A DNA stretch of 64,000 bases from Nitrospiraceae bacterium. Its GTDB lineage: Bacteria; Nitrospirota; Thermodesulfovibrionia; Thermodesulfovibrionales; UBA6898. A model generated the notes under the pieces. That model made no database searches. It was not told the origin of the DNA and saw only the letters and a list, made by a program, of their open reading frames with translations. Of the stretch, positions 12,889-42,577 are shown piece after piece. The translations under genes and the position numbers were made by a program. Position 1 is the first letter of the stretch. Every line of letters starts with the position of its first letter. The stretch is from NCBI GenBank assembly GCA_020347665.1, contig CP070737.1, positions 1,075,189-1,139,188 of the forward strand, given 5' to 3'.

Positions 12889-12963
12889 TGGCTGGGGCGG
12901 GAGGATTCGAACCTCCATATGGGAGATCCAAAATCTCCTGACTTGCCATTTGTCGACGCCCCA
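12889..12963 (-). tRNA. tRNA-Gln (anticodon UUG)
   Basis: A complete 75-nt tRNA on the minus strand. The acceptor TGGGGCG pairs with CGCCCCA over seven bases, followed by discriminator G and an encoded CCA. The anticodon stem GGAGA/TCTCC closes the loop TTTTGGA with anticodon TTG, which reads CAA. The T arm is GGAGG-TTCGAAT-CCTCC and the variable region has five bases. It lies between ispE and prs in the same direction, so it is probably cut from that operon transcript. Confidence 0.96.
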
Positions 12964-38359: not shown

Positions 38360-38368
38360 GGAGCAGAT

Positions 38369-39334
38369 ACGAACACGCTCGAAATAGAATTTGACAGTGA
38401 AAAGGAATATCCATTCCTTTTCGATGGCATTGAAAAGAGTCTTAAATTAATAGAAGAGTCCTTAGGTATTAGTGCCAGTACCAGGGGAAACAAGATTTTT
38501 CTCAAAGGTAAAGATGATACGCTCAGAACCGCTGAAAAACTTATTAACGACCTGCGCCATATCAGCTCCGGGGGATATCATTTTAGACCTGAAGACATAC
38601 GATATGCAATAAAATTGATAGCCGAGGGCAATGAAACATCCCTGAAGGACCTTTTTCTGAACAATATTCCTGTCTCATCCAAACGGCGGTTCATTATTCC
38701 AAAAACTGAAACGCAAAAGAAATATATTGAAGCCATTAAACTTCATGATATTGTTATCGGAATCGGCCCTGCGGGTACAGGAAAGACATACCTTGCCATG
38801 GCCATGGCCATCAGTGCATATGTAAAAAAACAGATCAGCAGAATAGTCCTTGCCCGCCCTGCACTCGAGGCAGGCGAAAAACTTGGGTTTCTCCCTGGCG
38901 ATTTGTACGAAAAAGTAAATCCGTATCTGAGACCGCTCTATGATGCACTCTTCGACATGATGGGTGCTGACAAATCCTCAAAATTGATAGACCGGGGAAT
39001 TATTGAGATCGCTCCCCTCGCCTTTATGAGAGGGAGAACGCTGAATGACTCTTTTATTATTCTTGACGAGGCGCAAAATACGACATCAGAGCAGATGAAA
39101 ATGTACCTTACGAGGCTGGGATATAATTCCAAGACGGTGATTACCGGAGACATTACCCAGATAGATCTTCCTGCCGGACGAATGTCCGGACTGGTGGAGT
39201 CCATAGACATCCTCAAGAATATCAAAGGGATCCAGTTCATTTATTTCTCTGAAAAAGATGTTGTAAGACATCAGTTAGTTCAGGAGATTGTAAGGGCTTA
39301 TGAAAAACATGAAAAACGGAATACCTCTAGATAA
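38369..39334 (+). CDS. PhoH-like ATPase, apparent ACG start
   Basis: The PhoH domain has Walker A GPAGTGKTYLA and Walker B SFIILDEAQNTT, with the conserved RPALEAGEKLGFLPGDL. Upstream of it the frame encodes the usual N-terminal KH-like domain (TLEIEF...GNKIFLKG). No ATG, GTG or TTG occurs in frame before that domain; the next is TTG 38615, which would remove it. AAGGAG at 38358-38363 stands five bases before ACG 38369, which is followed by NTLEIEF. I therefore place the start at ACG, giving 321 residues. This is either a rare start codon or a single-base change from ATG. PhoH and YbeY are a common pair in rRNA maturation. Confidence 0.85.
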   Translation, partial: TNTLEIEFDSEKEYPFLFDGIEKSLKLIEESLGISASTRGNKIFLKGKDDTLRTAEKLINDLRHISSGGYHFRPEDIRYAIKLIAEGNETSLKDLFLNNIPVSSKRRFIIPKTETQKKYIEAIKLHDIVIGIGPAGTGKTYLAMAMAISAYVKKQISRIVLARPALEAGEKLGFLPGDLYEKVNPYLRPLYDALFDMMGADKSSKLIDRGIIEIAPLAFMRGRTLNDSFIILDEAQNTTSEQMKMYLTRLGYNSKTVITGDITQIDLPAGRMSGLVESIDILKNIKGIQFIYFSEKDVVRHQLVQEIVRAYEKHEKRNTSR

Positions 39335-42065: not shown

Positions 42066-42577
42066 ATGTGTAAAATGTATTATTCCCTTTTCTGCTACTT
42101 TCTGCACTGTACGGTTGTCTGGATGATCATGCCGGTGTATCCGAGCTGAAGACATTTCCTCTGGACGATTTCAAGGGGATAGTAACACAGTCAGCTGTTG
42201 CCATCGACCGCGCCATATCGAGTAACGGCAATGGTTCTCTTCCCGTATCTGTTGATAAGCCGACGGTGGTTCACCTTTTTGAAGTCCATGGTTTGTCTGT
42301 TGATAATGCTCGTCTCTTCTATCAAGCAAAGGTTCGCACAAAAAATGTTTCCGGCAAGGTGTATCTTGAAATGTGGTGACACTTTCCTCGCAAGGGAGAG
42401 TTCTTTTCACGAAGTCTCCATGCGCCGCTGTCAGAAACAACAGACTGGATAACCGTAGAAACGCCGTTTCTCCTCAAAAAAAATGAAAATCCCGATTATC
42501 TGAAACTGAATCTCGTTATCGACGGGTCAGGAACTGCCTGGATAGACGACATGAAATTGTTAAAAAGGGCTCTGTAG
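42066..42577 (+). pseudogene. Lipoprotein gene with frameshifted start and in-frame UGA (pseudogene or selenoprotein)
   Basis: From ATG 42066 the frame reads MCK and then needs a one-base shift at the AAAA run (42072-42075) to continue as NVLFPFLLLSALYGC, a lipoprotein signal with its lipobox. The same frame then runs to TAG 42575 and is interrupted only by TGA at 42377-42379. The protein around it reads KVYLEMW-[UGA]-HFPRKGEFFSRSL and goes on to LNLVIDGSGTAWIDDMKLL, so the part after UGA is clearly coding. From memory, relatives have Cys at the UGA position; I could not check this. With both corrections the protein has about 170 residues, UGA at about 105. Two lesions favour a pseudogene or assembly errors. 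A Cys-aligned UGA with a downstream hairpin favours selenocysteine. Confidence 0.7.
42389..42424 (+). promoter_or_regulatory. SECIS-like hairpin downstream of the in-frame UGA
   Basis: CGCA pairs with TGCG, GGAGA with TCTCC and TTC with GAA, separated by small internal loops. The apical loop is TTTTCAC, about 24 bases after the UGA. Bacterial selenocysteine insertion elements lie at this distance inside the coding region. The loop lacks the preferred early G unless the inner three pairs are open, when it begins GTTC. Confidence 0.35.

Follow-up and report, generated by a model that had tools for sequence, protein, structure and literature searches.

A UGA in place of the invariant cysteine of a lipoprotein gene: a broken gene or a new selenoprotein?

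A lipoprotein gene in the window (the whole stretch of 64,000 nucleotides analysed here) carries an in-frame UGA where every relative that covers the site has a cysteine codon. We read the gene, with a probability of roughly 0.5, as a recently broken copy of a family of Cys lipoproteins, in a host that uses selenocysteine (Sec). This reading is somewhat more likely than that of a new selenoprotein, and neither is proved; the odds assigned to the competing readings are a rough judgement and not a computed result. The only plausible start codon is cut off from the signal peptide by a one-base frame disagreement; in a broken gene, the UGA, having arisen by chance from a Cys codon during decay, would act as a stop, so that the full-length protein would not be made. 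The loss of the gene would be recent, since little else has decayed.

From 42074 on, the gene reads NVLFPFLLLSALYGCLDD...GKVYLEMW-UGA-HFPRKGEFFSRSL...LNLVIDGSGTAWIDDMKLLKRAL in one frame, with the UGA as the sole interruption (Table 1). As an earlier note on this DNA had stated, the 65 codons that follow the UGA, up to the TAG, are open and have protein character: the coding score of the lipoprotein frame is 8.1 upstream of the UGA (2.6 in the best other frame) and 9.0 downstream of it (-8.6 in the best other frame). The lipobox cysteine, C15, is nearly invariant in the alignment of relatives. The second lesion that the note had placed near the start was also observed. The start ATG (42063 or 42066) is out of frame by one base with the signal peptide and the lipobox LYGC; in the frame of the gene body, the TAA at 42071-42073 is followed by AAT GTA TTA TTC CCT TTT CTG, and no ATG, GTG or TTG occurs over 64 codons. 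Judged from the sequence, ATG ATG TGT AAA probably contains the only plausible start codons. A programmed -1 shift at the start was ruled out by inspection, the local sequence containing no slippery heptamer. As sequenced, the start lesion prevents translation of the whole protein; it may instead be a sequence error. A selenoprotein gene is expected to have, apart from its UGA, an intact frame with a start codon, and the lipoprotein gene has none.

Table 1. Features of the lipoprotein gene (window coordinates) and the arsenite methyltransferase gene of the same genome
Feature	Position	Strand	Remark
Probable original start, ATG ATG TGT AAA	42063..42074	+	one base off the frame of the gene body
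A-run, start frame and body frame offset by one base	42072..42075	+	frame lesion or sequence error
Lipoprotein frame, UGA read through	42074..42577	+	167 codons, ending in TAG 42575-42577
Lipobox Cys codon TGT (LYGC)	42116..42118	+	most relatives have their lipobox Cys at the aligned position
UGA in frame, replacing the invariant Cys of LEMWCHF	42377..42379	+	codons at the aligned site: TGT 25, TGC 21, TGA 1 (window gene)
Longer fold, TGACA (42377-42381, includes the UGA) pairing with TGTCA (42429-42433)	42377..42433	+	-19.6 kcal/mol
Stem-loop CGCA/TGCG, GGAGA/TCTCC, TTC/GAA, loop TTTTCAC	42389..42424	+	-16.1 kcal/mol
Arsenite methyltransferase, in-frame UGA in the UxxG motif, conforming bSECIS	L170:12271-13032 (TGA at 12898)		

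Relatives of the gene were found at 33 public-genome loci over many phyla, with further matches, some of them pieces, in 17 other genomes of the order. The site aligned to the UGA is occupied by Cys in 46 of the 46 other sequences that cover it, a few of which are the same gene reached through two collections, and residues 97-104 (YLEMWCHF) are invariant in the alignment. The earlier note was therefore right that relatives read LEMWC at this place and that the UGA replaces Cys; Trp or Arg at the site is ruled out, every homologue having Cys. The invariant Cys codon is hit by one of the 55 single-base nonsense routes available in the lipoprotein frame (1.2-1.8% by weight), and we conclude that the UGA falls on this codon more than chance would predict. 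No second copy with a UGA at the site was present in 176 genomes of the order, 396 genomes of the phylum or the 33 public loci. For a selenoprotein, two or more different sequences would be expected to keep the UGA; a gene with the UGA in a single sequence, as here, is a candidate only by the classing of PMC1088965. In two Planctomycetota records (L053, L065), the same domain lies behind a longer membrane-spanning N-terminal region, without a lipoprotein signal.

The genome very likely decodes UGA as selenocysteine, judging from its gene content: SelA, SelB and two SelD genes score above curated cut-offs, both SelD genes carry a UGA, in a CG-U-AAK or AG-U-AAK motif, and the arsenite methyltransferase, which came from a 521-kb sample of the genome and whose UxxG motif is in the motif list of PMC13188914, is a further selenoprotein gene. 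Two findings that the earlier note had named as refuting a selenoprotein, Trp or Arg codons in homologues and a genome lacking selB, are thus contradicted by the data. Genome-wide reassignment of UGA is ruled out, since about a third of long genes (71 of 219) end in TGA. The search for selA, selB, selC and selD that the earlier note had proposed was thus successful for all but selC: no intact tRNA-Sec gene was found in the genome, nor was one found beside or within selA/selB. The sequence record is a pseudo-contig with gaps and 100-N joins, and the tRNA hits examined in it included neither tRNA-Glu nor tRNA-Ile(GAU). Because the assembly is gapped, and because tRNA-Glu was likewise not found, the absence of tRNA-Sec is uninformative. 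Two fragments of a tRNA-Sec gene are present 480 kb apart. One comprises the last 28 bases, 96% identical, and looks like an integration-site remnant (G000:C1:1513180-1513207, minus strand, in L109); the other comprises 22 bases from the D arm to the anticodon loop, identical to the selC of a relative (G000:C1:1993509-1993530, plus strand, in L110). A tRNA-Sec model gave hits over its cut-off in 20 of the 27 genomes of the family; the sole hit in G156, and the second hit in several others, is a similarly shaped tRNA-Cys. In five genomes of the family (L104, L105, L106, L107 and L108), ARAGORN assigns a tRNA-Sec-like gene to tRNA-Cys, anticodon GCA, in line with the selC* tRNA-Cys described in PMC7609411.

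Stretches of 48-60 nt starting from the UGA fold with -15.7 to -19.6 kcal/mol and z-scores of -2.75 to -3.5 against synonymous recodings of the same stretch. A stable stem-loop, as expected of a selenoprotein gene, therefore follows directly on the UGA. At 42-45 nt from the UGA, the effect was not significant, and control stretches within the lipoprotein gene gave no fold signal. At 54 nt, the z-score of the window gene was the lowest among homologues, the Cys homologues lying between -1.9 and +1.9. For comparison, z-scores over 42-60 nt range from -0.6 to -2.8 in the three known selenoprotein genes of the genome, and a value of -2.8 is attained by about 1% of ordinary coding windows.

In the published bacterial SECIS (bSECIS) model (PMC13188914), the loop must have 3-9 nt, carry a G among its first two positions and lie 16-37 nt from the UGA, and the energy must be at most -7.5. 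The two SelD genes conform to this model, as does the methyltransferase gene, with loops GUUC, GGUUC/GUU and GGUCA. The window gene departs from both the loop rule and the energy requirement: the loop of its stem-loop is UUUUCAC, the best stem of the conforming type has -2.7 kcal/mol and an over-long loop, and structures up to 9 kcal/mol above the optimum showed no conforming loop. Since some selenoprotein genes also miss the model, according to the review in PMC13188914, this failure lowers the selenocysteine claim rather than excluding it. A first hairpin, at 42381-42401 (-9.2 kcal/mol with a short extension), was rejected as a SECIS; its loop is just 9 nt from the UGA, and a similar hairpin occurs in several Cys homologues because the peptide encodes it. 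The idea that RNA structure forces the odd residues R and S downstream of the UGA was also rejected, as the consensus codons fold nearly alike. Rfam SECIS_1 (RF00031) was uninformative here, giving no hit in any control genome.

Decay is seen elsewhere in the family. Within the order, one copy (G095) is split by a one-base frameshift and four genomes (G098, G102, G103 and G105) contain C-terminal remnants; a Dadabacteria record (L075) has a copy with another frameshift. None of these broken copies and remnants has a UGA at the Cys. In L037 as in L075, an indel of one base splits the gene at most about 12 codons from the invariant Cys, possibly by chance. Of the 45 conserved columns, 5 are altered in the window protein, a count among the highest of the 42 sequences but reached or surpassed by some intact copies. 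Departures are no different before the UGA (3 of 23) and after it (2 of 22). The terminal branch of the window sequence is 0.52, versus a median of 0.24. The 521-kb sample took in the window plus 23 further stretches, together roughly a quarter of the genome. No convincing case of a gene interrupted by TAA or TAG was seen in it, and so decay by nonsense mutation is uncommon in this genome. Of the 558 coding frames sampled, most have a normal appearance. The phoH frame (38360-39334), 4 kb upstream of the lipoprotein gene, has no ATG, GTG or TTG before 38614; an ACG at 38369 lies roughly 5 nt past a GGAG. This is either an unusual start or a sequence error. A small gene judged by eye to resemble that of ribosomal protein S21 (L171, around 1391, minus strand) also has no usual start, with ATC/ATA after AGGAG, and L176:15971 resembles another frameshifted gene.

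The AlphaFold2 model of the protein is a confident beta-sandwich (mean pLDDT 89, pTM 0.81), and its closest fold is that of carbohydrate-binding module (CBM) family 16 (PDB 2zex and 2zew; Foldseek E 9.5e-7, TM-score 0.65-0.72, 15% identity). A Pfam search with the window protein returned no family, and two NCBIfam matches were far below cut-off; DUF7305 was touched by 1 of 30 relatives. No operon conserved across phyla offered a clue to function. From the fold alone, an intact member, which has an invariant Cys-His pair, is most likely a surface-anchored lipoprotein with putative binding of a sugar or other ligand.

The main rival to a broken gene is a working, or recently working, selenocysteine lipoprotein. 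SelB and tRNA-Sec would read UGA 42377 as selenocysteine, the downstream stem-loop would be a non-standard SECIS, and the product would be a form of the lipoprotein with Sec in place of its Cys; the start lesion would then reflect either a fault in the assembly or decay setting in once Sec had replaced Cys. We consider this a substantial but lesser possibility. The invariance of Cys at the site, the SelA, SelB, two UGA-bearing SelD and UxxG methyltransferase genes, a fold with a z-score lower than in any homologue, and the protein character retained on both sides of the UGA all argue for it, while the departure from the bSECIS loop rule and energy, the out-of-frame start, the failure to find an intact tRNA-Sec in an incomplete assembly and the candidate status of a single sequence argue against it. 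Two independent lesions lie within 167 codons of the gene. Further points in favour of decay are the broken start, the loop that misses the bSECIS model, the occurrence of the UGA in one sequence only, the broken and remnant copies in the order and in L075, the 5 of 45 departing columns and the long terminal branch. The small share of nonsense routes that hit the Cys codon (1.2-1.8%) and a fold stronger than in all Cys homologues favour the opposite; a fold as strong as in known selenoprotein genes, the lack of convincing TAA- or TAG-broken genes in the 521-kb sample, the even spread of departing columns across the UGA and the equal number of departures in intact copies also speak against decay. 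Decay, which the earlier note had offered as the competing view, has gained from the start lesion and the broken relatives, and a pseudogene is not proved. If the gene is indeed a broken one, it is a warning that a UGA at a conserved Cys, a Sec-using genome and a significant RNA fold do not together prove a selenoprotein.

Two further explanations have much lower odds. The real gene could be an intact Cys lipoprotein, with both the start lesion and the UGA being wrong base calls. The gapped, metagenome-type pseudo-contig with its 100-N joins, the nearby phoH without a usual start and the frameshifted appearance of L176:15971 are consistent with such errors, but two separate errors would be required in one gene, one of them precisely at the invariant Cys, and most sampled coding frames are normal; we consider this explanation improbable. 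Alternatively, the UGA could be read as Cys by a tRNA-Cys that resembles tRNA-Sec and has the anticodon UCA. Genes for tRNA-Cys of tRNA-Sec-like shape exist in the five genomes of the same family, and UCA-anticodon forms have been described (PMC7609411), but in all five the anticodon is GCA, which decodes TGC/TGT, no such tRNA was found in the window genome, and the other UGAs in this genome are at known selenocysteine sites. Reading of the UGA as Cys is therefore very improbable.

The 2026 catalogue (PMC13188914) tabulates 119 prokaryotic selenoprotein families and subfamilies, none of which is like the lipoprotein family. The suggestion of the earlier note that this would be a selenoprotein of an undescribed family thus stands as far as the catalogue goes, while selenoprotein status is unproved, the bSECIS and the start both failing. 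A new selenoprotein family, in which the single invariant Cys of an exported beta-sandwich lipoprotein is replaced by Sec and the SECIS lies off the bacterial consensus, is a tentative proposal. If true, a non-thioredoxin and probably surface-anchored family would join the 119 catalogued ones, the invariant Cys in this unstudied family of lipoproteins would be expected to have a reactive role, and the stem-loop would be a natural SECIS that breaks the consensus.

With bacterial selenoproteins that form Sec/Cys pairs, such as SelD and the UxxG arsenite methyltransferase, the window gene shares the UGA at a conserved Cys position, the presence of SelA, SelB and SelD in the genome, and a stable stem-loop directly 3' of the UGA. 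It differs in its loop, which does not fit the bSECIS model, in its broken start, in being known from one sequence, and in coding for a beta-sandwich in place of the usual thioredoxin-like protein or redox enzyme. The beta-sandwich is shared with CBM family 16, but at 15% identity and with no CBM family matched by sequence, so that the protein is not a member by sequence and the likeness is one of fold alone. The gene belongs with the single-Cys LEMWCHFPGKGEFFSRGL lipoproteins, an uncharacterised family matched by no Pfam or NCBIfam model: its protein is 44-60% identical to them, has the lipobox and keeps all invariant residues save the Cys, whereas the gene itself differs from theirs in the UGA that replaces this Cys and in the frame lesion at its start.
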